This document shows positions 15,389 through 30,626 of a DNA stretch of 64,000 nucleotides, one piece after another. The translations under genes were made by a program, and so were the position numbers. The stretch is taken from the NCBI GenBank assembly GCA_002840095.1, contig PGZL01000002.1, forward strand, positions 155,872-219,871, written 5' to 3'. Positions within the stretch are counted from its first letter, which is position 1. Each line of letters opens with the position of its first letter. Source of the stretch: Gammaproteobacteria bacterium HGW-Gammaproteobacteria-1. Its GTDB lineage: Bacteria; Pseudomonadota; Gammaproteobacteria; Thiohalomonadales; Thiohalomonadaceae. The notes below the pieces were generated by a model. The model had not been told where the DNA came from, made no database searches, and worked only from the letters and a program-made list of their open reading frames with translations.

Positions 15389-16909
15389 ATGGGTTCAGGG
15401 AGCGAATGCGTGTCAATCGAAATTTCCATAGTCAGATCTCCCAAGCACGTTCAGCATACGAAGACGTCGCATTGCTTTGCGACGCAGGGCGGTTCACTGG
15501 GCCGTGGGCCGGACAATGCCTGGGTGCTGGAAGACCCTGAGCGCTTTATCTCCACCCGGCATTCCCAGATAGTGTATGAAAACGGTCGGTATTATCTGGC
15601 CGACCTGAGCACCAATGGCACCTTTTATAATGGTGCAGCCGAGCCTATCGGTAACGGCAACCGGGTTCCCCTTAAAGACGGCGACCGCTTCAGTCTAAGC
15701 GACTACGAATTCGAGGTGCGTGAGCGGGCAGACGGTAGCGCGGCCGGAATGCCGGAGGATGATCCCTTTGCGCTCAATGGCTTCGCGGGGCATTCCTCGA
15801 TGGATGACGCCGATTTGAGCGGATTCGCCAGCAGCTACGTTGGCAGTGACCCCTTCGCCAACCCTGTGGCCGCCCCCCTGCCCGCGCTCGGGTCGCTGAT
15901 TGAGCCGGACTACGCAGAAACCGACCCCCTTGCTGTGCTGGACCGGGTCGGGCAGCCGTCTCAGGCCAACCCGTTTCTCGAACCCTTTGCTCCAAGCCAG
16001 CCGGACAACGCCGATCCCATGCAACAGGCGATGGCCTGGCCGAGCGCCATTCCGGAAGACTGGGACAATGAGCTTGGCGGGCACGAGCCGCCGGTAGCGC
16101 CTGTCAGTGCTCCGCCAGCCCAGGCCCCGTTCAATGCGGCCGACTCCAATACCCTCGAGATGTTGCGCATGGCGGAGGAAAAGTGCGAGGCGCTGGAGAC
16201 GGAAAACCGGGCATTGCTCGCCGAGATTACGCAGCTGCGGCAAAAGCTCAAGAACGTCGGGCAGACCACGGCGCCCAAAGCCGTGGAACGCAGGGTACAC
16301 GAGACTGACGAATCCCTGATCGAAGTGATGGGACTGGGGGGCTGGGACCTGTCCGAGGCCAAGCGGCTGGAGGTCAGCAACATCGCAGGACAGATCGTGC
16401 GCGAGACACTTATCGGGCTGATGCAGGCCCTGAGTTTTCGTAAGAAGATCAAGGAAGAGTTCCGCATCAATGTGACAACGATACAACCTGTCGAGAATAA
16501 CCCGTTGAAGTTTTCCGCCAACCTCGAGGACGCCCTGGAGAACATGTTTGTGCGCGAGAACAAAGCCTACATGCGGCCACTCGATGCGGTCCGCGAGGGA
16601 TTTCAGGGGATTTCCGAACATCAGGTGGCCGTGCTGTCCGGCATCCAGGCCGCCTTTCGAGGCATGATCGAGCGCTTTGACCCTGATTCTTTGGAAAAAC
16701 GCTTCGAGAAATACCGCAAGGCCGGGGTCATCAAGGTTGGACAGAAAAGTAAGAACTGGGATTCATACCGGGAGTTTCACCAGGATCTGGTGAACAACCT
16801 GGACAATTCCTTTCAGCATTTATTTGGCTACGACTTCATGCAGGCCTACGAGGATCAGTTGCAGCGTCTGGTGATGTCGCGTCGTGCCAAGGCCAAGGCG
16901 AAATCCTGA
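15389..16909 (+). CDS. tagH: TagH/Fha, FHA-domain T6SS regulator
   Basis: 506 aa. The N-terminal FHA domain (about residues 12-110) has the phospho-threonine-binding residues: GSLGRGPDN, STRHSQIVYENGRYYL and LADLSTNGTFYNG. A long Pro/Ala-rich linker with a short coiled coil (MAEEKCEALETENRALL) leads to the ImpI/VasC C-terminal domain (LGGWDLSEAKRLEVSNIAGQ onward), which is typical of T6SS TagH. Such proteins bind phosphorylated T6SS partners and promote assembly. ATG 15389 has GGAG 5 nt upstream; a GTG at 15410 with AGGGAG 7 nt upstream starts closer to the domain and is equally plausible. First gene of the rightward arm, together with the kinase and phosphatase genes downstream. Confidence 0.93.
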   Translation: MGSGSECVSIEISIVRSPKHVQHTKTSHCFATQGGSLGRGPDNAWVLEDPERFISTRHSQIVYENGRYYLADLSTNGTFYNGAAEPIGNGNRVPLKDGDRFSLSDYEFEVRERADGSAAGMPEDDPFALNGFAGHSSMDDADLSGFASSYVGSDPFANPVAAPLPALGSLIEPDYAETDPLAVLDRVGQPSQANPFLEPFAPSQPDNADPMQQAMAWPSAIPEDWDNELGGHEPPVAPVSAPPAQAPFNAADSNTLEMLRMAEEKCEALETENRALLAEITQLRQKLKNVGQTTAPKAVERRVHETDESLIEVMGLGGWDLSEAKRLEVSNIAGQIVRETLIGLMQALSFRKKIKEEFRINVTTIQPVENNPLKFSANLEDALENMFVRENKAYMRPLDAVREGFQGISEHQVAVLSGIQAAFRGMIERFDPDSLEKRFEKYRKAGVIKVGQKSKNWDSYREFHQDLVNNLDNSFQHLFGYDFMQAYEDQLQRLVMSRRAKAKAKS

Positions 16910-18847: not shown

Positions 18848-19783
18848 ATGTCAACAGATGACTCGGATAAAACCGTATTTCGCCAGTCCGGCGCCGCATC
18901 CGGCGCGCAGGGCGACCGAACCGTGATCAGACCCTCGCCAGGGCGCCGCGGGGCGGCGCAACCGCAGCAGCGGCAGGCTGATGCTGCGCAACACGCGCGA
19001 AACGACTATGCCAAGCCGGCGGGTCACACGCCGCAGCGAAGTTTCGAGGATACCCATAACGGGCAGTTCAGTACGTTGTGTGGACTGAATCCGCTGGTGA
19101 ATGCCGCCTCGATGTTGCTGGCGGTGTTCCATAATGCGCGGCGGTCTATGGCGCACCCAAATGTCGGTGGACTGCATCAACAACTGGTCAGCGCCATCCG
19201 CGCCTTTGAGACAAGCGCGAAAGAAAAAAATATCCGCCCGGAAGTCGTGCTGGCGGCGCGTTATGTGCTTTGCACGGCACTCGATGAGGCGGTACTCAAC
19301 ACCCCGTGGGGTGCGGAGAGTGCCTGGACGCAACGCAGCCTGCTGAGTCTGTTCCACAACGAAACAAACGGCGGTGAAAAATTCTTCATGCTGGTCGACC
19401 GCATGCGTGAGAGACCCGCCGAAAATATCGACATTATCGAGCTTATGTACGTTCTTCTAAGTCTCGGATACGAAGGCAAGTATCGGGTCATCAGCCGCGG
19501 CCGGGATATGCTGGAAAATATTCGCGACGAGCTGTACCGGATCATCCGCACCCATCGGGGCGACTACGAACGCGAACTGTCGGCGAACTGGCGTGGCTTG
19601 GGGAATGTCAGGAATTCGCTCGCCAACTACATTCCGATGTGGGTCGTCGCCAGCGTGGTCTGCGGCGTGCTCGTGCTGGGCTATTCGGGGGTTCGGTACT
19701 GGCTGCATCAGTCGGCCGGGTATACGGTAGCGCAACTTGAAGCGATCATCAGTGCGGACCCCGACAAGACCCAGGGTCAATAA
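18848..19783 (+). CDS. tssL: TssL (DotU/IcmH-like) with Thr-motif N-terminus
   Basis: 311 aa inner-membrane component. The cytoplasmic DotU domain (about residues 75-240) shows NPLVNAASMLLAVFHNAR, AARYVLCTALDEAVLNTPWG and FFMLVDRMRERPAENIDIIE; one C-terminal TM segment (IPMWVVASVVCGVLVLGYSG) follows. There is no OmpA/peptidoglycan-binding domain. The disordered N-terminus has two matching Thr sites, DKTVFR (T9, nt 18866-18883) and DRTVIR (T25, nt 18914-18931). These resemble sites in the kinase N-terminus and the Thr of Agrobacterium TssL that PpkA phosphorylates and Fha binds; that role here is inferred. Confidence 0.95.
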   Translation: MSTDDSDKTVFRQSGAASGAQGDRTVIRPSPGRRGAAQPQQRQADAAQHARNDYAKPAGHTPQRSFEDTHNGQFSTLCGLNPLVNAASMLLAVFHNARRSMAHPNVGGLHQQLVSAIRAFETSAKEKNIRPEVVLAARYVLCTALDEAVLNTPWGAESAWTQRSLLSLFHNETNGGEKFFMLVDRMRERPAENIDIIELMYVLLSLGYEGKYRVISRGRDMLENIRDELYRIIRTHRGDYERELSANWRGLGNVRNSLANYIPMWVVASVVCGVLVLGYSGVRYWLHQSAGYTVAQLEAIISADPDKTQGQ

Positions 19784-19813
19784 GCGGGTGCACAGGACAC
19801 GTTTGGGCAAGAT

Positions 19814-22800
19814 ATGAGCAAGATAGCCGGTTTCTTCAAAAACAAAATAGTAATTTCGCTGATCGGACTGATAATCCTGTCACTGCTGATATGGTTTGTG
19901 GGGCCGTATATCAAATTCGGCAGCGACAATTACGCGCCGCTGGGTGGCGAGGTGGCGCGCCTTATCGCCATCATGGTGATTGTGATGATGTGGGGGCTCA
20001 ATAACCTGCGCATCACGCTCATGGACAAGAAGCACAATGCCGAACTTGTGGCCGACCTGCAGGAAAACCACACCAGCGCCAACCGGCTGATCAACGAGCA
20101 GCAGTCGGAAGAGATTCATGTCTTGAACGAGCGGTTTTCGCAGGCTTTGGCGACCCTCCGGAAGCTCAAGTTCAACGGGCGCGGGTCACGCAAAGCGCTG
20201 TATGAATTGCCGTGGTACATCATCATCGGGCCACCGGGATCGGGCAAGACAACTGCGCTGATCAACTCCAGCCTCGAGTTTCCGCTGGCTGACAAGTTCG
20301 GCAAGGAGGCCCTGCACGGAGTAGGCGGTACGCGCAACTGTGACTGGTGGTTTACCAACGAAGCGGTACTGATTGATACGGCGGGTCGTTATACGACGCA
20401 GGACAGTCACAAGGTTATCGATAGCGGCGCTTGGGACGGATTCCTTTCGCTGTTAAAGCGGAACCGACGTCGTCGTCCGATCAACGGCGTCATCGTTGCT
20501 ATCAGTCTGCAGGAATTGCTGTTGCAGACCGAGGATGAGCGTGCCGCGCATGCGCGCACCATCCGCACGCGAATCGACGAGCTGATGAACAAGCTGGAGA
20601 TCCGTTTCCCCATCTATCTCATGTTCACCAAGAGCGATTTGGTGTCAGGCTTCAGTGAATTCTTCGAGGACATGGGCAAGGAGGAGCGTGAGCAGGTCTG
20701 GGGCGTTTCCCTGCCCAATGCGCCGGAGGCCTCGCAGAGTCCTGACCTGGATTATCTGCACGATGCCTATCAGGGGCTCGTCAAGCGGCTGTATGAACGG
20801 GTCATCACCCGTATTCATCAGGAGCGTGACCCTAACCGCCGAGCGGCCATCCAGGCCTTCCCGCAGCAAATGGAGAACCTGAAGAACATCGCCCTGCAGT
20901 TTGTGCAACAGACGTTCGTCAAGAATCGTTACCAGTTCCAGCCCTATCTGCGCGGGGTGTATTTCACCAGCGGCACGCAGGACGGTACGCCGATAGACCG
21001 CCTCATGTCCTCGGTGGCGGTGAATTTCGGTTTCGATCGCCAGGCGATATCCGGCGGCATCGGCATGGGCAAGAGTTTCTTTCTCGGCGGGCTGTTTCGC
21101 GAGGTGATATTTCCAGAGTCCGAGTTGGTGGGTTCAAATCGACGTTATGAGTCTTTTATCCGCTGGTCGCAACGTATCGGCTATGTGGGCATGGCGTCGC
21201 TCGTCGTTATCTTGCTGACTGCATGGGCGGGCAGTTTCACCCGGCACAAAATGTATATGGGCGAGGTCGAGGCCCAGGTCGCCGATTTCAATGTGGAGCG
21301 TGTGCGCGTCAATGCCTGGAGTAATGACCTGCGCCAGGTGTTGCCGAGCCTGAACGCGCTGGCCCGGGCCAGTATCGTGTATGACAAGGAGGCGCATCCC
21401 TGGCTGTCGGGCCTGGGCATGTACGATGGGACGGTCGATCAGATGGCGGACCGGGCTTACGAGTCGCAACTGGTGACGATGTTTCTGCCGCGCCTGCTCG
21501 ATTACATGGCGGGTACCATCAAACACGCCAGCAATGAGCGCGATCTATACGATGATTTTCGTACCTATATGATGTTTGCGCATGTCGAGCACATCGATAA
21601 GGCCCATGTCATGGATTGGTTCAAGGGGCGCCTGGACGAGGACTTGTATGGTCAGGCGACACAGCGGGGCGAGTTAATGGCACATCTGGATGCCTTGTTG
21701 CGGATTGAACTCGAACCGTCCAAGCTCGATCAGTCCCTGGTCAATACTGTGCGCAGTCGCCTGTTGCAGGTTCCTGTCTCACAACGTGTCTACAGCCGGA
21801 TCCGCAGCAATCCGAAATATTCGCAACGCATCAATCTGCTCAATGAGTTCGGCGAGTCTGTGCGCGGCACCTATGTCGTCAATGATTCCGTGCAACAGAA
21901 CCTGTCGATGCCGGTGCTGTTCACGAAACAGGCGCATGAGAGCATAAATTTGTCCCCCGAGGCGGAAATTATTGCCGACCTGACGCGTGAAAAGTGGGTG
22001 CTGTCCGATGGCGAGGATGCCCGCGTGGATTTTGTCCAGGACGACCTGGATACGGTTGCGCGCCAGGTTCAGGAGCATTATGACGCCGATTACGCGGCGC
22101 ATTGGGTGAGGATGTACAGCGCGCTGGAGGTCAAGCCCTTCGAAAGCCTGCGCCAGGCCAATGATACCCTGCAGGCATTCACTGACCCGGTGTATTCGCC
22201 ACTGCTGTCGATCTTGCAGGTGGGCGTGGCCAATACCGTGCTGACCAACCAGATGGTGTCGGATCTTGCGGATGACAACAAGGATGGTAAGAAGGGAAGA
22301 GTGCTGGCTTTTGCCGCTACGCAGGTCGACCTGACCGTGGTGGACAAGCAATTCAGGGAGGTGAACCAGTTATTGCGCGAGCGCAAGGATCATCCGCCCG
22401 AGGTGCAGAATGTCATTCAAAAGGTGCGCCAGCTACAGGAGTTCGTCAACGAGATATTGATCGCCCCGGACCCCGGTAAAAAGGCCTTTGAGGTGGCACG
22501 CGCGCGCTATCAAAGCGGTGCCGGCAACGCGATTACTTCAATTGCCGGCTACGCAAATGGCCTGCCGGAGCCGCTCAATCGCTGGTTGCGGACACTTTCC
22601 ACAGAAACGTGGAAGGTGGTGCTGGGGGCCGCACACGGATATGTCAATGCCGAATGGAAGAATCAGGTATATGAACCCTACGTGCGCGGACTTAACAACC
22701 GCTATCCGTTGCAGCGCGATGCCAGTGCCGATGTCGGCCTGCGCGACTTCACCGAGTTCTTCAAGCCGGGCGGTATCATCGACAAGTTTGCCGCGGAGTA

Positions 22801-23377
22801 TGTCCGCCCCTTCGTCGATACGCGCAGCGGCTGGAGCAATCGCGGTATTGACAATTACAGCCTCGGGCTGTCGTCTGCGACGCTGGCGCAGATCCGCAAG
22901 GCGCAGGTTATAAAAGAGGTATTTTTCAGCGAAAGCCCGGAGTTTCCCAGCTTGACCTTTCAGTTGCGTCCTTACGATATGAAAAAGTCGGACGCGCGCT
23001 TTACCCTGGAAGTTAGCGACAAACGCATAACCTATAGTCATGGGCCCAAGTTCTGGAGCACTTTGCAATGGGCCGGAAATGACACGCAAAATCGCGTGCG
23101 TGTCATCTTTGAAGACATTCAGGATCAGCAGCACTCGCTTACGTATGAAGGTCCATGGGCCTGGTTCCGCTTGCAGGATGCCGCAAAGATCAGCAGTACC
23201 ACCGCACCTAACGTGTACTTGGCGACTTATTCCGCAAATGACGGGAACCATAGTTATAGTGCCGCCGCAGCCGTGAATCCGCAGCACAACGTGCGTTATG
23301 AGATCAAGGCGCGCAGCGTGAACAATCCGTTTAACAAGGATCTTCTGGGCAGTTTCAGGTGTCCCGAGCGAATTTAG
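19814..23377 (+). CDS. tssM: TssM (IcmF-like) T6SS membrane complex protein
   Basis: 1187 aa, IcmF/VasK family. Two N-terminal TM segments (about residues 12-32 and 47-63), a cytoplasmic NTPase-like domain with Walker A GPPGSGKT (K145) and DTAGRY, then a third TM near residues 455-475 (YVGMASLVVILLTAWAG) and a long periplasmic part ending in the IcmF C-terminal beta domain that binds TssJ. Length is at the usual size for TssM. It lies 30 bp after tssL and ends 8 bp before the tagF start. The Walker A is intact, unlike in some TssM proteins. Confidence 0.97.
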   Translation: MSKIAGFFKNKIVISLIGLIILSLLIWFVGPYIKFGSDNYAPLGGEVARLIAIMVIVMMWGLNNLRITLMDKKHNAELVADLQENHTSANRLINEQQSEEIHVLNERFSQALATLRKLKFNGRGSRKALYELPWYIIIGPPGSGKTTALINSSLEFPLADKFGKEALHGVGGTRNCDWWFTNEAVLIDTAGRYTTQDSHKVIDSGAWDGFLSLLKRNRRRRPINGVIVAISLQELLLQTEDERAAHARTIRTRIDELMNKLEIRFPIYLMFTKSDLVSGFSEFFEDMGKEEREQVWGVSLPNAPEASQSPDLDYLHDAYQGLVKRLYERVITRIHQERDPNRRAAIQAFPQQMENLKNIALQFVQQTFVKNRYQFQPYLRGVYFTSGTQDGTPIDRLMSSVAVNFGFDRQAISGGIGMGKSFFLGGLFREVIFPESELVGSNRRYESFIRWSQRIGYVGMASLVVILLTAWAGSFTRHKMYMGEVEAQVADFNVERVRVNAWSNDLRQVLPSLNALARASIVYDKEAHPWLSGLGMYDGTVDQMADRAYESQLVTMFLPRLLDYMAGTIKHASNERDLYDDFRTYMMFAHVEHIDKAHVMDWFKGRLDEDLYGQATQRGELMAHLDALLRIELEPSKLDQSLVNTVRSRLLQVPVSQRVYSRIRSNPKYSQRINLLNEFGESVRGTYVVNDSVQQNLSMPVLFTKQAHESINLSPEAEIIADLTREKWVLSDGEDARVDFVQDDLDTVARQVQEHYDADYAAHWVRMYSALEVKPFESLRQANDTLQAFTDPVYSPLLSILQVGVANTVLTNQMVSDLADDNKDGKKGRVLAFAATQVDLTVVDKQFREVNQLLRERKDHPPEVQNVIQKVRQLQEFVNEILIAPDPGKKAFEVARARYQSGAGNAITSIAGYANGLPEPLNRWLRTLSTETWKVVLGAAHGYVNAEWKNQVYEPYVRGLNNRYPLQRDASADVGLRDFTEFFKPGGIIDKFAAEYVRPFVDTRSGWSNRGIDNYSLGLSSATLAQIRKAQVIKEVFFSESPEFPSLTFQLRPYDMKKSDARFTLEVSDKRITYSHGPKFWSTLQWAGNDTQNRVRVIFEDIQDQQHSLTYEGPWAWFRLQDAAKISSTTAPNVYLATYSANDGNHSYSAAAAVNPQHNVRYEIKARSVNNPFNKDLLGSFRCPERI

Positions 23378-23385
23378 GAGGGGGC

Positions 23386-24126
23386 ATGAGTAGTCCAGGA
23401 TTGTATGGAAAGCTGCCTGCTCACGGTGATTTTGTGCAGCGCAATCTGCCTGGCGCATTTGTGCAGGAGTGGGATCAATGGTTGCAGCATCTGGTGGCGG
23501 GGGCCAGGGAAAAGATCGGCGAGCAGTGGCTCGACATCTACCTGACCAGCCCAATCTGGCGTTTCGTGCTGTCACACGGTGTGATTGACGCCAATCACTG
23601 GGCCGGGATCGTGTTGCCCAGTGTGGATTTAGTTGGGCGCTATTTCCCGTTCAGCATTGTCATGCAGGTTGGGCAACAGCATCATCCGGCTGGATTTCTC
23701 GCCGAGCAGTCTGCCTGGTTTTCCGCCATCGAGGAGTTGGCTTTGCGCGCCCTTGAAGGCGAGTTGTCGCTTGATGAGCTGGTCGATGCGCTGGAGCAAT
23801 CAGGTACGGTTCTGGATAGCGCCTATCAGCCGGCGAACGATGTCTCCGGTTGCAGTGATATCCAGCTGGACATGGAGTTTGAGGAACAGTCGGTCATGTC
23901 CGCCTATCCGGCAATGCTTGACGCGCTGCTCGCCGGACAACTCAACAGCTACAGCGTCTGGTCGACGGATGGTTCCGAGCGCGTCGCGCCCTGCGTGTTC
24001 AGTGTGGCGGGCTTGCCGTCAACGAGCAAGTTGCCGGCGCTGCTGGATGGCCAGTGGCAGTACTGGGGATGGCGGCAACCCTATGTGCTGGTAGCTCCGG
24101 ATAAAAACATGGGCGTTGCGGTATGA
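23386..24126 (+). CDS. tagF: TagF, T6SS post-translational repressor-type protein
   Basis: 246 aa, TagF/ImpM (DUF2094) family. N-terminal LYGKLPAHGDFVQRNLP and SPIWRFVLSHGVIDANHWAG are the family signature. In Pseudomonas TagF holds the T6SS inactive independently of or together with Thr phosphorylation by acting on Fha. The frame is open upstream into tssM, but ATG 23386 follows a very strong Shine-Dalgarno (AGGAGGGGGC), so it was chosen. The stop overlaps the pppA start (ATGA). Confidence 0.93.
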   Translation: MSSPGLYGKLPAHGDFVQRNLPGAFVQEWDQWLQHLVAGAREKIGEQWLDIYLTSPIWRFVLSHGVIDANHWAGIVLPSVDLVGRYFPFSIVMQVGQQHHPAGFLAEQSAWFSAIEELALRALEGELSLDELVDALEQSGTVLDSAYQPANDVSGCSDIQLDMEFEEQSVMSAYPAMLDALLAGQLNSYSVWSTDGSERVAPCVFSVAGLPSTSKLPALLDGQWQYWGWRQPYVLVAPDKNMGVAV

Positions 24127-24923
24127 CTGATATTACCGTCAGAAGGCCGGTTACCTGGACCTCTTGCGCGGCGACAGACGTGGGTACCGTGCGTTCAGTC
24201 AATGAGGATGCCGTTCTTGACAAGCCTGAGCTTGGCCTGTGGGCGGTGGCCGATGGCATGGGCGGCCACGAGGCGGGTGATGTCGCCAGTCAGATGATAG
24301 TCGAGGCTCTGGGCGAGCTGAACAGGCCGCAGGTGTTGAGTGATTTCATCAACCAGATCGAAAACCGGATCATCGACGTCAACGCGCGCCTGTTGGAGTA
24401 CTCGGAGATCATGCTCGATGGCCGGGTGAGCGGAAGTACGTTCGTGTCGTTGGTGATCTACGGTCATGCCGGGGCCTGCCTGTGGATGGGCGATTCGCGA
24501 CTGTATCGGTATCGCGGAAACAGGCTGCGGCAAATATCGCGCGACCACAGCCAGGTTTCCGAGTTGCTGCAGGCCGGTGCCATTACGGAAGAGGAGGCGC
24601 GGAATCACCCTGAATCCAATGTGATTACCCGCGCCGTAGGTACCAACGAAGTCCCCTATCTGGACATGGACGTGTTCGACGTCCAGCTCGGCGACGTGTT
24701 GTTGTTGTGCAGTGACGGACTGTACAACGCCCTTGACGAGAGCAGCATAGCAGCGTGCCTCGATAATGCGGATCCGAAGCAAATAGTTGCCCGGTTAATC
24801 GATGCCGCCCTGGCGCATGGAGCGGCCGATAACGTGTCTGTCATTGCCGTCAAGGGGATGCGGAACGGGATGCCCGTCGCAGCAGCATCCGAACAAGCAG
24901 AGCAAGTACACGGCGATGAATGA
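24123..24923 (+). CDS. pppA: PppA, PP2C-type Ser/Thr phosphatase of the T6SS
   Basis: 266 aa PPM/PP2C phosphatase. Metal-binding motifs are visible: SVNEDAVL, VADGMGGHEAGD, LWMGDSRLYRYR and LLLCSDGLYN, then AADNVSVIAV. In T6SS loci PppA reverses the phosphorylation made by PpkA on the FHA protein or its partners and so resets the system. It overlaps tagF by 4 bp and the kinase gene by 8 bp, a common phosphatase-kinase pair. Confidence 0.96.
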   Translation: MTDITVRRPVTWTSCAATDVGTVRSVNEDAVLDKPELGLWAVADGMGGHEAGDVASQMIVEALGELNRPQVLSDFINQIENRIIDVNARLLEYSEIMLDGRVSGSTFVSLVIYGHAGACLWMGDSRLYRYRGNRLRQISRDHSQVSELLQAGAITEEEARNHPESNVITRAVGTNEVPYLDMDVFDVQLGDVLLLCSDGLYNALDESSIAACLDNADPKQIVARLIDAALAHGAADNVSVIAVKGMRNGMPVAAASEQAEQVHGDE

Positions 24924-27702
24924 CAAGTCAAAAGCCGATAGCAGCGTGCCGGCGGCACCGGGAACGCCGCAGGACAATCCGGTGGGCGCGCCCGGTGACC
25001 GCACTGTTTTCCGGTCTACTTCTTCCGTGCAGGGCAGCGTTCAGGGACCGGGCAATGCTGTGACGCAGGATAGTCCGGTCGACGCCACGCGCATAGCGCA
25101 GCCGGGATCGCCGCAGCGGAAATCCGCCGAATCAGGCAGTGATCATACAGTCTCACGTCCCGCTGCACCTGCGCAAAGCACCGGCCAGGCTCGGGGCAAT
25201 CCTGTTGCGCAGGAACAGCCCGCTGATGCCACGCGTATCAAGTCGGCAGGCGTGGCCGCGCGCACCCCAGGGCAGGTTCCGCGCCAACCGTCCGCCGGCA
25301 CAGATGCCACGCGCATGCGGCAGGCGCCACCTGCCGCACAGGGCAGCCCCAACCAGACCAGGGTGCGCGAGCAGGCGAGGCCGGCCAGTGTCGGTCGCGA
25401 ACAGCAAGTGGGGGCAGTACAGGAGGACACGGTTCTCAAGGGCCGTTTTGTGCTGGAGAAAGTCATCGGCGTGGGCGGAATGGGAGTCGTATACAAGGCT
25501 ACCGACAAGCTGAAGGTCGAGGCACATGATCGCGAGCCACACGTGGCTATCAAGGTTTTGAGCGACGAGTTCAAATCGCATCCTGAGTCGTTCATTGCCT
25601 TGCAGCGCGAATCCCGCAAGACGCAGCGGCTCGCCCACCCCAACGTCGTGAAGGTATACGATTTTGACCGGGACGGTGACACCGTCTTCATGACCATGGA
25701 ATACATGGAAGGGCGGCCGCTGGATCAAATAATCAAGCAATACAGCAGTACCGGCCTGCCCCGTGACGATGTCTGGAACATTCTCAACGGCCTTTGCTCC
25801 GCATTGATATATGCGCACGCAGAGAAAATCGTGCATTCGGATTTCAAACCCGGAAATATCTTTATCACGGATGCCGGCCACGCCAAGATTTTTGACTTTG
25901 GTATTGCGCGTGCGGTAGCCAGTGTCGATCGACAGACCGGAAAGCATCAGGATCGTACCGTGTTCGATGCAGGGAGCCTCGGCGCCCTCACGCCGGCATA
26001 CGCCAGCCTGGAGATGCTGTTGGGCAAGGAGCCGGATATCCGCGACGATCTCTTTGCGCTTGGGTGTATTGCCTACGAGATGCTGACCGGCGAGCACCCC
26101 TATAAGCGCATGCCGGCCGATGAAGCATTCAAGAGCCGGATGAAGCCCGCAAAAATATCCGGCATTAAAGCACGGCAATGGAAGGCGATTGAAAAATCCC
26201 TGGCGTTCCGGCGCGAGGACCGTCTCGCCTCGGTCGAGGAATTTTATCAGTTAATTCAACCCAAACGCCGCTCACTCGCTTTGTGGTTTGTATTGGCCGT
26301 ACTGGCCACGGCAAGCTCAACTGTCTATTTCGTGCTGGACAATGCCCGCCCGCCGCCACCGGCAGCCGAAATTCAACTGGATGAAATCGAATTCAAGATT
26401 CGTTATGACCTGTTCAGGGAAAAGATAGAAAAGCTGGTGGCCGACTCGCGTTTTTCACCGGACTGGGAAAGCAGCTTGAGGGATGAGGTGAACGGCTTGC
26501 GGACCTTGCTGGGAGAGCGGCAGGATACGTGGCTCGTCACGATGCGGGAGGCTATTTATAGCCTGTATCAGAAAAAATTCCTGGAACTCCTGCAGGCGAA
26601 GAGTTTTTCCCGTGCCGGCGAAATTCTGAATAATGCCGCGCACTATACGGACGATCCTAAATGGATAGGCGAACAGAAACAGCAACTTGCGGAGCTGGAA
26701 CGACAGGAAGCGGAACGGCAGAGTGCGGCGCGGGCGGAGCGTCAGCGTGTAACTGAGGTTCGTGACGCGCAGATCAAAGTCGAGGAACGCCGTAATGACC
26801 TGTTCGACCTGGCGCTGCGCAACGTTAATCAGCAGTTGCAGTGTCAGGGGCAACTCAATATGCGCGGTTTCGGAGTTGCCGTTGACAAGTTGCGTGCCAC
26901 CGATGCGCAGCGCTACGCAAAATTGGAAAGTAATATCATCGTCAAGCTTTCCGAGTGTATCTCCCGTGTCGGAAAGAGCCAGCCGGAACGGGCGCTGGAG
27001 GCGAAAAACTATGCCTTGCGTATTTTCAACAATAATCGGTTTATCGCCGCGATTAACATCACGCCGCGTGATGTCTGCGACCGATCGATTGCCGGACTTG
27101 GCGCGCGGGGTGATCGGGCGGTGTGCCAGGATAAATTGGCGGATGGCGGCTCCGGACCCACGTTGGTCGTGATCCCCGGGGGCAAGGGGATTTCGGACTT
27201 TGCCATCGGAAAATACGAGGTTTCGGTGCGCGAGTTCAATCACTACTGCAGAGTGTCGGGCGCCTGCGGTCCGGTTGCCGGACAGGATGAGTCGTTGCCG
27301 ATCGTCAATGTCACGCTCAGTCAGGCTAATGGCTATATCCGATGGCTGAGTAGTACGACACAGCAGAAGTATCGTCTGCCTTCCCGTGTCGAATGGATGT
27401 ACGCCGCCAATGCCACCAGCCAGTCACACGACCCGAATCGCAACTGTCAGCTGAACAGTCGCGGCATCGAGAAGGGCGGAGCACTGGTGCGAATGAATAC
27501 CGGCATGCAGAACAGCTGGGGTCTGGTCAACTACCTGGGTAATGCCCGGGAGTGGGTCTATGACCAAAGCCGTAGCCTGCTCGCAGTTGGCGGTTCGTTT
27601 GATGACCCTATGGAGCGGTGCGACGTAGCTGCCATGTCAGCGCACACTGGTCAGGCAGACAAGCGTACCGGTTTTCGCGTGGTGCGAGAGTTGGTCAGGT
27701 AA
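24916..27702 (+). CDS. ppkA: PpkA-type Ser/Thr kinase with C-terminal SUMF1/FGE-like domain
   Basis: 928 aa from ATG 24916, overlapping pppA by 8 bp. Order: disordered N-terminus (1-175); kinase domain (about 178-445) with glycine loop GVGGMGVVYK, VAIKVL (K213), catalytic loop HSDFKPGN (D309) and DFG (D327); one TM at about 453-474; a coiled-coil part; and a SUMF1/FGE-like domain (about 747-928) with GNAREWVYD, AVGGSFDDP and KRTGFRVVREL. The FGE part would lie in the periplasm and looks non-catalytic because only one Cys is in the usual active-site stretch. In Pseudomonas an FGE-like protein, TagR, acts upstream of PpkA in the periplasm; here the two seem fused. The N-terminus has at least seven Thr motifs (T30, T58, T78, T106, T132, T148, T172), with an eighth, T348, in the activation segment. 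Confidence 0.93.
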   Translation: MNDKSKADSSVPAAPGTPQDNPVGAPGDRTVFRSTSSVQGSVQGPGNAVTQDSPVDATRIAQPGSPQRKSAESGSDHTVSRPAAPAQSTGQARGNPVAQEQPADATRIKSAGVAARTPGQVPRQPSAGTDATRMRQAPPAAQGSPNQTRVREQARPASVGREQQVGAVQEDTVLKGRFVLEKVIGVGGMGVVYKATDKLKVEAHDREPHVAIKVLSDEFKSHPESFIALQRESRKTQRLAHPNVVKVYDFDRDGDTVFMTMEYMEGRPLDQIIKQYSSTGLPRDDVWNILNGLCSALIYAHAEKIVHSDFKPGNIFITDAGHAKIFDFGIARAVASVDRQTGKHQDRTVFDAGSLGALTPAYASLEMLLGKEPDIRDDLFALGCIAYEMLTGEHPYKRMPADEAFKSRMKPAKISGIKARQWKAIEKSLAFRREDRLASVEEFYQLIQPKRRSLALWFVLAVLATASSTVYFVLDNARPPPPAAEIQLDEIEFKIRYDLFREKIEKLVADSRFSPDWESSLRDEVNGLRTLLGERQDTWLVTMREAIYSLYQKKFLELLQAKSFSRAGEILNNAAHYTDDPKWIGEQKQQLAELERQEAERQSAARAERQRVTEVRDAQIKVEERRNDLFDLALRNVNQQLQCQGQLNMRGFGVAVDKLRATDAQRYAKLESNIIVKLSECISRVGKSQPERALEAKNYALRIFNNNRFIAAINITPRDVCDRSIAGLGARGDRAVCQDKLADGGSGPTLVVIPGGKGISDFAIGKYEVSVREFNHYCRVSGACGPVAGQDESLPIVNVTLSQANGYIRWLSSTTQQKYRLPSRVEWMYAANATSQSHDPNRNCQLNSRGIEKGGALVRMNTGMQNSWGLVNYLGNAREWVYDQSRSLLAVGGSFDDPMERCDVAAMSAHTGQADKRTGFRVVRELVR

Positions 27703-27707
27703 TTGCG

Positions 27708-27923
27708 ATGCCGATCGAGAAATATTCGGGACTGCTGCGGGCATTGAACGAGGACTATTACTGCGGACACCTCGCGTTTGAGGAGTACCGAAAATTGCGT
27801 GGTGATATTCTGGGGGAAGTCGAAAGCGAGACGAATATGACGCCAGGGACGCAAGCCGGCCATGAGAGCAATGTGCTGGCGCGGGTGCTGGCGTATTTCA
27901 AGTCGACAGAAGAAAGCGAGTAA
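27708..27923 (+). CDS. Small 71-aa protein between ppkA and exbB
   Basis: 71 aa from ATG 27708, 5 bp after ppkA. The central part (LLRALNEDYYCGHLAFEEY then RKLRGDILGEVE) resembles the short SHOCT-like pattern of a Leu-rich helix, a Gly and an Ex(Y/F)xxxR helix, but no family is claimed. It has no signal or TM. Reading the long frame upstream from 27618 would overlap ppkA, so the later ATG is preferred. It is probably co-transcribed with the kinase and with exbB 58 bp downstream. Confidence 0.7.
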   Translation: MPIEKYSGLLRALNEDYYCGHLAFEEYRKLRGDILGEVESETNMTPGTQAGHESNVLARVLAYFKSTEESE

Positions 27924-27981
27924 TAAACACACCATCTATTTGCCATTGAATAAACAACCTGCATTTAGCGAGAGACTAGCC

Positions 27982-28599
27982 ATGAAACTTGTTGAACTGT
28001 TTCAGTCCGGTGGACTGTTTATGTATCCGATATTGATCGTGTTCGCTGCCGGTGCGGCGATTGCACTGGAGCGGCTTTTCTATTTGAGTCGTACTACTGG
28101 TGCGACCAATCGGCTGTGGTCGCAACTGGTGCCCATGCTCAAGGCGCGTGACTTCATGCGCGCACTGCAGTTGGTTGAAAATACCAAGTCGCCATTGTCA
28201 TCCATCCTGAGCTATGGTTTTGCGCGACATAGCGCCAACAAGCGCCGGGAAATAGTGGAGGCGGCGATGGAGGAGGGTATGTTGGATGCCATGCCTCACC
28301 TGGTGCAGCGCACACACTATCTTTCCACGTTCGCCAATATTGCGACGCTGCTGGGTCTGCTTGGGACCATTGTCGGTTTGATCCAGGCGTTTACCGCAGT
28401 CGCAAATGCTGATCCTGCCGAGAAAGCCGAGTTGTTGTCCGCGAGTATCTCGGTGGCCATGAACACCACAGCCTTCGGGCTGATGACCGCTATTCCCCTG
28501 TTGCTTGTGCATTCCTATCTTGTTACCAAGACCTCGCGTCTGGTCGATAGTCTGGAAAAGGCCGCGGTCAAATCACTGAACATGATGATTAACGACTAG
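27982..28599 (+). CDS. ExbB/TolQ/MotA-family proton channel subunit
   Basis: 205 aa, three TM segments. TM1 is near residues 10-30 (LFMYPILIVFAAGAAIALE), TM2 near 115-140 (LSTFANIATLLGLLGTIVGL) and TM3 near 160-185 (NTTAFGLMTAIPLLLVHS); the LLGLLGTIVG and NTTAFGL pieces are family hallmarks. Such proteins form the stator pentamer that couples proton flow to work by a partner. ATG 27982 follows GAGAG; an upstream in-frame extension was rejected because it has no family match. It sits directly after the T6SS kinase region and before two exbD genes, so an Agl/TolQ-like role linked to the T6SS is possible; iron uptake is less likely, as no receptor gene is near. Confidence 0.93.
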   Translation: MKLVELFQSGGLFMYPILIVFAAGAAIALERLFYLSRTTGATNRLWSQLVPMLKARDFMRALQLVENTKSPLSSILSYGFARHSANKRREIVEAAMEEGMLDAMPHLVQRTHYLSTFANIATLLGLLGTIVGLIQAFTAVANADPAEKAELLSASISVAMNTTAFGLMTAIPLLLVHSYLVTKTSRLVDSLEKAAVKSLNMMIND

Positions 28600-28613
28600 G
28601 CGGCCCCGATACG

Positions 28614-29156
28614 ATGCATAACCACAGCAAGGAATATCTCAAAGAGGCCGAGGAGCTGAATATCACGGCCTTTATGAACCTGATGGTGATCCTGGTCCCG
28701 TTCCTGCTGATTACGGCGGTATTTTCACGCATGACGGTGCTGGAGCTGAACCTGCCCGGCCTGGATGACAAGCAGCAGGTGAATGATGACGTTAAGCTGT
28801 CGCTCGAGCTGGTTTTGCGCGAACAGAGTTTTGATATCCAGGATGCCAATCTGGGACTGATAAAGCGGTTCGAGCGGACCGCCGGCGTGACGAGCTGGCG
28901 CGGATTCAGTGATGTACTGGTGGAAATAAAACGCCGTTTCCCGGATGAGCGCGGCATAACCATTCTGGTGGAGCCGGCGGTGGAGTACAAAACACTGATT
29001 CAGGCCATGGATCGTGTGCGTAGTGCCGAGGTCGTGGATGGACTGAGTGTTGAGACCGTCGAATTGTTTCCCGATATATCACTGGGCGATGCCGGCTTGT
29101 CCGCACAGATTGACGGCGGCACAGAGTCATCGGCAGCTACAGGTGGAACGCCATGA
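28614..29156 (+). CDS. ExbD/TolR-like protein lacking the membrane aspartate
   Basis: 180 aa with one TM (LMVILVPFLLITAVF, about residues 22-40) and a periplasmic ExbD-type domain. The family places an Asp (proton-binding) after the first turn of the TM, as in the neighbour at 29153-29665 (SLMDIFTILVF). Here the corresponding stretch is ITAFMNLMVILV with Asn at residue 22. The codon is AAC at 28677-28679. It lies 14 bp after the exbB gene and overlaps the second exbD by 4 bp. A second, structural ExbD in a heteromeric stator, as in Agl systems with two TolR-like subunits, is the likely meaning. Confidence 0.88.
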   Translation: MHNHSKEYLKEAEELNITAFMNLMVILVPFLLITAVFSRMTVLELNLPGLDDKQQVNDDVKLSLELVLREQSFDIQDANLGLIKRFERTAGVTSWRGFSDVLVEIKRRFPDERGITILVEPAVEYKTLIQAMDRVRSAEVVDGLSVETVELFPDISLGDAGLSAQIDGGTESSAATGGTP

Positions 29157-29665
29157 TCAAGCAGGGCAAAAAGCTTACCGGTCGCAAGCAACGCATGCAG
29201 CACTTTAAGGAGCTGCACGGAAGCTCCGGCCTGAATGTCGTTTCATTAATGGATATCTTTACGATTCTGGTGTTCTTTCTGCTGGTCAATACCAGCGCTC
29301 AGCAGCTGCCAAGCAGCAAGGACATGAAACTGCCGACCACGGTGGCGACCAAAGTGCCCGAGGAGACGCTCGTGATTGCGGTCACCCGGGACAGTGTGCT
29401 CGTCGGCGGGCGCAGGGTGGCGGGCGTGTCTGAGGTGTTGGCTTCTTCCGAGCCGATCATCGGACAGCTCCTCGATGAACTCAAATTCCAGTCTGGCCGA
29501 AGCTTGGGTGACGGCAAGGAAGCGCAGCAGGCGCGTGCAGTCACGATCATGAGTGACGAAACGATCCCCTATGCGCTTATGAACAAGGTCCTCACAACCT
29601 GTCGGCAGGCGCGTTATACAAATATTGCCTTTGCGGCCTATCAGCAGGCCAAAGGTAAGGGCTAG
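29153..29665 (+). CDS. ExbD/TolR-like protein with the conserved membrane aspartate
   Basis: 170 aa with the ExbD hallmark SLMDIFTILVFFLLVNTSAQ (Asp at residue 34 in the TM helix), then a periplasmic domain. The Asp is the expected proton carrier. Start overlaps the previous gene by ATGA, so the two ExbD paralogues are made in linked amounts. It ends 4 bp before the AgmX/TonB-like gene. Confidence 0.92.
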   Translation: MIKQGKKLTGRKQRMQHFKELHGSSGLNVVSLMDIFTILVFFLLVNTSAQQLPSSKDMKLPTTVATKVPEETLVIAVTRDSVLVGGRRVAGVSEVLASSEPIIGQLLDELKFQSGRSLGDGKEAQQARAVTIMSDETIPYALMNKVLTTCRQARYTNIAFAAYQQAKGKG

Positions 29666-29669
29666 CCTG

Positions 29670-30626
29670 ATGCACGTGCCTACCTACGAGCAGGTTGCGT
29701 TTGCGTGGCGCCCAGACGCCAGGGACGAGCGTAGATTCCGTGTATTTCTGGCGTTGGTCATAACGGCTTTCCTGTTCGCCGGGATTGTTCTGTCGAGCAT
29801 CCCGTTGCCGAAGAAAGAGCGGGCCGCGCGTGTAGAGGTGCCGGAACGAGTTGCCAAATTCATCACCGAACGGCCGAAGCCAAAGGTGGTGGAGGCGCCG
29901 AAGCCGGAGCCGAAAGCACCGCCGCCCCGTCCAGAGCCCAAGTTTGAGCGCAAGCCCCAGGAAGAACGCAAACCACTGACTAACATAGAAGTTAAGGCGC
30001 GGCAGAAAGCCGAGGACAGCGGCTTGCTGGCGTTGAGCAGAGATCTGTCGGACCTGATTGATACGGTCAGCGTGCAATCCATGACCAACGGCCGCCTTAG
30101 TAAGTCGGGCGACAGCCAGAGCGTGGCGGCGGTGAACACCGATATCCTGACATCACGCGGTGCGCAGGGAAGCGGTGGTGTAAAGCAGGATGTCCGTGAT
30201 GGTGACGTTGGCCGCAGCCAACTCGACGAGGGGCAAAGGCAGGTTGCGCGGCAACTGCTGGCCAGCAAAGGTCAAATCGGTACCGCCGGCAGTGAATTCG
30301 GTGCCTCGGGTAGGCAAGGCATGGAACGTGGCGACAACCTGCGTTCGGAGGCAGACGTGGCCTATGTCATGGACAAGCACAAGAGTATTCTGCATTCCAT
30401 CTACCGGCGTGCGCGTCGTTCCAATCCGGGCTTGCAGGGCAAGATCGTACTGGAAATTACCATCCTGCCGTCCGGGCAGGTCTCTGATGTGCGTGTGAAG
30501 TCCAGTGAACTCAATGACAAATCCCTGGAAGTGAGCCTGGTGGCGCGCATCAGGCAGTTTGATTTTGGCAGTCGCCCGGTCGAGCCGCTGACCATTGTCG
30601 TGCCCGTTGAGTTTTTACCCTCTTGA
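29670..30626 (+). CDS. TonB-like/AgmX-PglI C-terminal-domain envelope protein
   Basis: 318 aa from ATG 29670. Cytoplasmic lead, one TM (VFLALVITAFLFAGIVLSS, about residues 24-42), a periplasmic Pro/Lys/Glu-rich rod (KPKVVEAPKPEPKAPPPRPE), and a C-terminal domain (about 230-318) with HSIYRRARRSNPGLQGKIVL then TILPSGQVSDVRVKSS. This last pattern matches the AgmX/PglI C-terminal domain more than the classical TonB domain. AgmX/GltG/GltJ-type proteins transmit work from AglRQS motors in Myxococcus. The neighbour exbB-exbD-exbD order supports such a module. The frame is open upstream to 29625 but inside exbD, so the later start is used. Confidence 0.85.
   Translation: MHVPTYEQVAFAWRPDARDERRFRVFLALVITAFLFAGIVLSSIPLPKKERAARVEVPERVAKFITERPKPKVVEAPKPEPKAPPPRPEPKFERKPQEERKPLTNIEVKARQKAEDSGLLALSRDLSDLIDTVSVQSMTNGRLSKSGDSQSVAAVNTDILTSRGAQGSGGVKQDVRDGDVGRSQLDEGQRQVARQLLASKGQIGTAGSEFGASGRQGMERGDNLRSEADVAYVMDKHKSILHSIYRRARRSNPGLQGKIVLEITILPSGQVSDVRVKSSELNDKSLEVSLVARIRQFDFGSRPVEPLTIVVPVEFLPS

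Follow-up and report, generated by a model that had tools for sequence, protein, structure and literature searches.

The PpkA-type Ser/Thr kinase encoded in a type VI secretion (T6SS) gene cluster of Gammaproteobacteria bacterium HGW-Gammaproteobacteria-1 carries, in its N-terminal tail, an array of threonine motifs that is conserved among orthologues and has a consensus in common with the activation loop of the kinase and the N-terminus of TssL. The retention of the motif while the remaining tail changes suggests that the tail is a phosphorylation-controlled docking strip for the FHA-domain protein encoded nearby.

Gene cluster and kinase architecture

The window, that is, the whole 64,000-nucleotide stretch analyzed, contains a type VI secretion cluster in which Pfam names Fha, TssL, TagF, a PP2C phosphatase and a Ser/Thr kinase (Table 1). 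The identities of Fha (TIGR03354) and TssL are also given by NCBIfam, and the other Tss gene names are our reading of the cluster layout and of conserved orthologues. The Ser/Thr kinase, PP2C and FHA protein of a PpkA-PppA-Fha pathway are all encoded within the cluster; the kinase probably switches on the secretion system, and the PP2C would be expected to remove phosphate from the kinase and TssL sites.

By Pfam and AF2, the kinase comprises the N-terminal tail, a Hanks-type catalytic domain, a predicted transmembrane helix (the AF2 helix at residues 454-476) and an FGE-sulfatase domain at its C-terminal end (residues 760-923), and the catalytic residues K213, D309, N314 and D327 are invariant in a 17-sequence alignment. 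FGE-sulfatase is the domain class for which Pseudomonas aeruginosa TagR is known, and the kinase might be a fusion of PpkA with a sensor resembling TagR.

Immediately downstream of the kinase (window positions 27862-30626) is an ExbB-ExbD-ExbD-TonB-like gene set, which adjoins the kinase gene in most orthologous loci as well; this adjacency suggests that the set is functionally tied to the T6SS or the kinase. At loci L015, L016, L024 and L020, the array kinase and ExbBD genes lie apart from the core T6SS genes, a TssL gene being present at another place in each genome. In loci L009, L010 and L011, extra genes with an FHA domain follow downstream of the TonB-like one, at about 15.6-21.4 kb.

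Table 1 Genes and threonine sites in the window (window coordinates).
Feature	Position	Strand	Basis
Fha/TagH, N-terminal FHA domain and T6SS_FHA_C	15389..16909	+	PF00498 E=6e-16, PF20232 E=7e-56
TssL (DotU family), low-complexity N-terminus with two motifs	18848..19783	+	PF09850 E=1e-68
TssL T9, DKTVFR	18866..18883	+	translation; DKTVF in close orthologues retaining the N-terminus
TssL T25, DRTVIR, followed by PSPGRR	18914..18931	+	translation
PP2C phosphatase, PppA-like	24123..24923	+	PF13672 E=7e-13
PpkA-type Ser/Thr kinase, ATG at 24916, 928 aa	24916..27702	+	PF00069 at 179-417, PF03781 at 760-923
Kinase N-tail, predicted disordered, residues 1-169	24916..25422	+	AF2 pLDDT about 34-41 throughout
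Kinase T30, DRTVFR	24997..25014	+	translation; identical in closest orthologue L026
Kinase T58, DATRIA	25081..25098	+	translation; alignment column invariant for T
Kinase T78, DHTVSR, weak site	25141..25158	+	translation; not conserved in alignment
Kinase T106, DATRIK	25225..25242	+	translation, alignment
Kinase T132, DATRMR	25303..25320	+	translation; alignment column invariant for T
Kinase T148, NQTRVR	25351..25368	+	translation; alignment, D in many orthologues
Kinase T172, EDTVLK, probably no site	25423..25440	+	start of kinase fold; Thr not conserved
Activation-loop T348, DRTVFD	25951..25968	+	consensus common to tail and TssL

Threonine sites in TssL and the kinase

The initial annotation listed motifs at T9 and T25 of TssL and at T30 to T172 and T348 of the kinase, and translation places all of them at those residues. 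For residues 1-169 of the tail that bears most of them, AF2 pLDDT is about 37, as would be expected of a disordered segment. The expectation that the threonines are conserved in orthologues held, the alignment columns of T58, T132 and T348 being invariant, except for T78 and T172. These two were rejected as members of the array: the +2 residue of T78 is not hydrophobic, and T172 falls where the kinase fold begins, in a stretch in which the orthologues align to an ILKxRF consensus and AF2 order sets in. The refined site consensus reads D-x-T-[R/V/Q]-[I/F/V/M/L]-[R/K].

Within the activation loop, T348 and F350 are both invariant in the 17-sequence alignment, and most orthologues read D[KRQ]TVFDAG. 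The TssL proteins of close orthologues have DKTVF, usually followed by a second site ahead of RPxPG, and most TssL orthologues have a counterpart of T25 of the form D/E-x-T-[VI]-hydrophobic-R-P-x-PG.

Enrichment and retention of the tail motif

Our material comprised 20 orthologous loci and further genomes of the class, from which a set of 23 T6SS-clade kinase tails was drawn. D-x-T-[VRQ]-hydrophobic occurs 77 times in 22 of these 23 tails, counts that are not independent events because the tails are homologous, versus an average of 0.7 copies (maximum 4) when the tails are shuffled and none when they are reversed. The Ser-centred version of the motif is absent from all 23 tails, in which Thr and Ser are roughly equally frequent. 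The window tail alone has four copies, with 0.017 expected from composition shuffles (p<=2e-4). In an unbiased tally of residues around tail threonines, Asp at -2 and Arg at +1 are each enriched 4.0-fold, Ile or Phe at +2 5- to 6.6-fold and Lys or Arg at +3 2-fold, with Val also favoured at +1; around Ser, the same tally shows none of this enrichment. As the motif was defined post hoc, after inspection of these sequences, the safeguards are the controls with Ser and with reversed tails and the unbiased tally of Thr contexts, which outweigh the p-values.

Tail length ranges from 58 to 348 residues across orthologues, copies per tail from about 1 to 10 and motif spacing from 6 to 64 residues, so that copy number and spacing vary while the motif stays. 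Because pairwise aligners seek the motif and bias such comparisons in its favour, only the near-ungapped trio L015/L016/L024 offers a clean comparison; there the motif core is identical at 11/12, 11/12 and 7/8 positions versus 0.62-0.76 for the linkers, a small margin. The longest tail, of 348 residues, belongs to the L010 kinase (ORF L010:9302-12625); its roughly ten motifs lie in DPTVMRGQPQNP-type units that are almost identical to one another, which looks like a recent repeat expansion.

Selection on the repeated motif, which the initial annotation had thought likely, is strongly supported by these comparisons of sequences: the motif is kept despite the drift of the tail, Ser is excluded, and one consensus is found in TssL, activation loop and tail.

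A consensus common to tail, activation loop and TssL

Given that one consensus is followed by the tail, by the loop that activates the kinase (D-[KRQ]-T-V-F) and, in close orthologues, by the TssL N-terminus (DKTVF), the kinase probably phosphorylates all three. The sites may nevertheless be non-equivalent, since Arg prevails over Val at +1 in the tail (57 versus 21), whereas TssL and the activation loop have Val or Ile.

We searched the host genome for pairs of motifs 9-29 residues apart, run as DNA patterns, which returned TssL once, the kinase twice and five other matches, none of which encodes two strict motifs in one frame. Closely spaced strict pairs are thus confined in this genome to TssL and the array kinase, and no comparable array is seen at the further FHA and kinase loci of the genome that were inspected. 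A D-x-T site on Fha itself was considered and ruled out for this clade, as the Fha orthologues have no consistent site of this type, which leaves TssL and the kinase as the candidate Fha ligands.

The pThr-binding residues R39, S55, H58 and N76 of Fha are kept in at least 90% of orthologues, and the R39-S55 spacing matches that of R30-S46 in Agrobacterium tumefaciens (PMC3953482). The ELM classes of FHA ligand are pTxx[ILV] and pTxx[DE] (PMC8786283). Most tail sites lack such a hydrophobic or acidic +3 residue, having mostly Arg, Lys or Ala there (Arg or Lys in 49/99), and with this basic +3, conservation of the flanks may be due to recognition by the kinase alone.

Distribution among kinases and TssL proteins

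Sister kinases, with about 42-55% identity in the catalytic domain and mostly outside T6SS clusters, have weaker arrays with fewer motifs than the T6SS-clade tails: 28 tails contain 27 D-x-T matches versus 1.15 after shuffling, and no Ser version. Several have genes for a PP2C and an FHA protein as neighbours. By Pfam, two of these FHA neighbours are nucleotide cyclase-FHA fusions (L050:5696-6619 and L097:10874-11779), which lie beside PP2C and outside T6SS clusters; the L050 kinase tail has eight motifs.

Across 59 loci of the class, the N-terminal TssL motif is present at 31/35 loci with Fha, PP2C or kinase nearby and at 0/24 loci without, an association partly due to N-terminus length; among N-termini of at least 40 residues, the figures are 31/32 versus 0/13. 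On the TssL tree, the motif and the phosphorylation genes each change three times and form one supported independent pair; the association therefore follows T6SS lineages and was set aside as independent evidence. The kinases of more distant T6SSs lack the array though their TssL has the site, so that the array looks like a trait of the kinase lineage rather than of the T6SS and is dispensable for the pathway in general.

Comparison with known systems

Multi-Thr docking tails on kinases are already known. The SQ/TQ cluster domains of Rad53/Chk2 place several FHA-read phospho-Thr sites on a kinase tail; these kinases differ from the array kinase in being eukaryotic, in their TQ consensus and in having the FHA domain inside the kinase.

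A direct precedent is PknG, in which several autophosphorylated threonines of a disordered N-tail anchor the FHA partners GarA and OdhI (PMC8546545). A docking array on the kinase itself, with which the initial annotation was not familiar, is thus not unprecedented. The kinase described here has a comparable N-tail, predicted to be disordered, with several candidate Thr sites. It lacks the PknG architecture of a TPR domain and optional rubredoxin-like domain, having a predicted transmembrane helix and FGE-sulfatase domain instead, and actinobacterial PknG is of another kinase family and process. The N-terminal sequence of PknG is, moreover, described as poorly conserved (PMC8546545), whereas here a single consensus is repeated and is common to the T6SS protein TssL. 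The array kinase is therefore not a PknG, and it may work in a PknG-like way.

In A. tumefaciens, an N-terminal TssL threonine is phosphorylated in a PpkA-dependent manner and bound by Fha, and its sequence, DLPpTVVEI (pT14), resembles D-x-T-V-hydrophobic (PMC3953482), with Asp at -3 where the sites here have it at -2. The binding of Fha to pT14 TssL bears out the precedent that the initial annotation had invoked, at a weak affinity (Kd 0.5-1.6 mM) (PMC3953482). That system has one TssL site, with none reported on the kinase tail, and T14 was said not to be conserved outside Agrobacterium/Rhizobium (PMC3953482), whereas such a motif is found here in many gammaproteobacterial TssL proteins.

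P. aeruginosa, Serratia marcescens and Acidovorax citrulli follow the same PpkA, PppA, Fha and TagF logic, but there Fha itself is phosphorylated, at T362 or T640 (PMC5995506, PMC12607579), and we found no comparable site in the Fha of this clade. In A. citrulli, the kinase domain is said to lie at the N-terminus (PMC12607579), whereas in the array kinase an N-tail precedes that domain; PpkA of A. citrulli forms condensates into which Fha and TssL are drawn (PMC12607579).

A proposed docking model and its alternatives

In the mechanism that we infer, the kinase would autophosphorylate the D-x-T-[R/V/Q]-hydrophobic-basic repeats of its disordered N-tail as well as T348 of the activation loop, which has the consensus of the tail, and would phosphorylate T9 and T25 in the TssL N-terminus. 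The resulting phosphothreonines of tail and TssL would be bound by the FHA domain of the co-encoded Fha and so recruit it, and the tail, as a multivalent docking strip, would make Fha accumulate at the kinase and TssL; this accumulation would start type VI assembly, and PP2C would reverse the phosphorylation. We regard the complete scheme, from phosphorylation of tail, T348 and TssL through Fha docking, multivalency and type VI start to PP2C reversal, as having somewhat better than an even chance of being right. Reading of the kinase array by the FHA domain of Fha is plausible, given the FHA gene in the cluster, the conserved pThr-binding residues and the precedents set by TssL of Agrobacterium and by PknG.

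The chief alternative is that the kinase regulates itself and that no FHA domain reads the tail. The tail would then be an autophosphorylation cluster that tunes the kinase as a pseudo-substrate, a charge switch or by condensate formation, and its flanks would be the substrate consensus of the kinase. The identity of the tail and activation-loop consensus, the basic +3 residue unlike ELM FHA motifs and the ability of A. citrulli PpkA alone to form condensates (PMC12607579) all fit this reading, which we nevertheless consider fairly unlikely, because the exclusion of Ser suits a strict pThr reader, TssL, which in Agrobacterium offers its pThr to an FHA domain (PMC3953482), has the motif too, and FHA proteins adjoin sister kinases with such tails. 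The tail motif could also be an unphosphorylated linear motif that binds another T6SS part, as the conservation of Asp, Arg and hydrophobic flanks besides Thr would allow; this we hold to be distinctly improbable, since Thr is the most constant position and is not substituted by Ser, the same motif stands in the activation loop, where one expects a phosphoacceptor, and the cluster encodes kinase, PP2C and FHA protein together. That the motifs arose by chance, or by recent duplication of repeats within sequence of biased composition, as the sharing of most codons among the DATRI, DATRI and DATRM copies and the near-identical units of the L010 tail might hint, is scarcely credible in light of the shuffled, reversed and Ser controls over 23 tails and the survival of the motif where the linkers between tails have only about 24% identity.

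Significance

The literature searched, outside which most subscription journals lie, contained neither a repeated array with a shared consensus on a kinase of a T6SS nor the TssL site in T6SSs across the gammaproteobacteria, and a search by motif letters returned nothing relevant. In the same literature, TssL phosphorylation is reported only for Agrobacterium and Vibrio alginolyticus; the motif names likely TssL phosphosites across many T6SSs. The array is a sequence-level candidate for a T6SS phosphorylation switch that would concentrate Fha at the membrane complex. More generally, and tentatively, at rather less than an even chance, the fast-evolving D-x-T N-tail of membrane Ser/Thr kinases with an FGE-sulfatase domain may be a multivalent scaffold, switched by phosphorylation, for the particular FHA protein encoded alongside, be it T6SS Fha or a cyclase-FHA fusion, with one consensus serving activation loop, tail and the client TssL. 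The findings suggest that FHA-docking tails on kinases are a device that Gram-negative bacteria can deploy in more than one setting.
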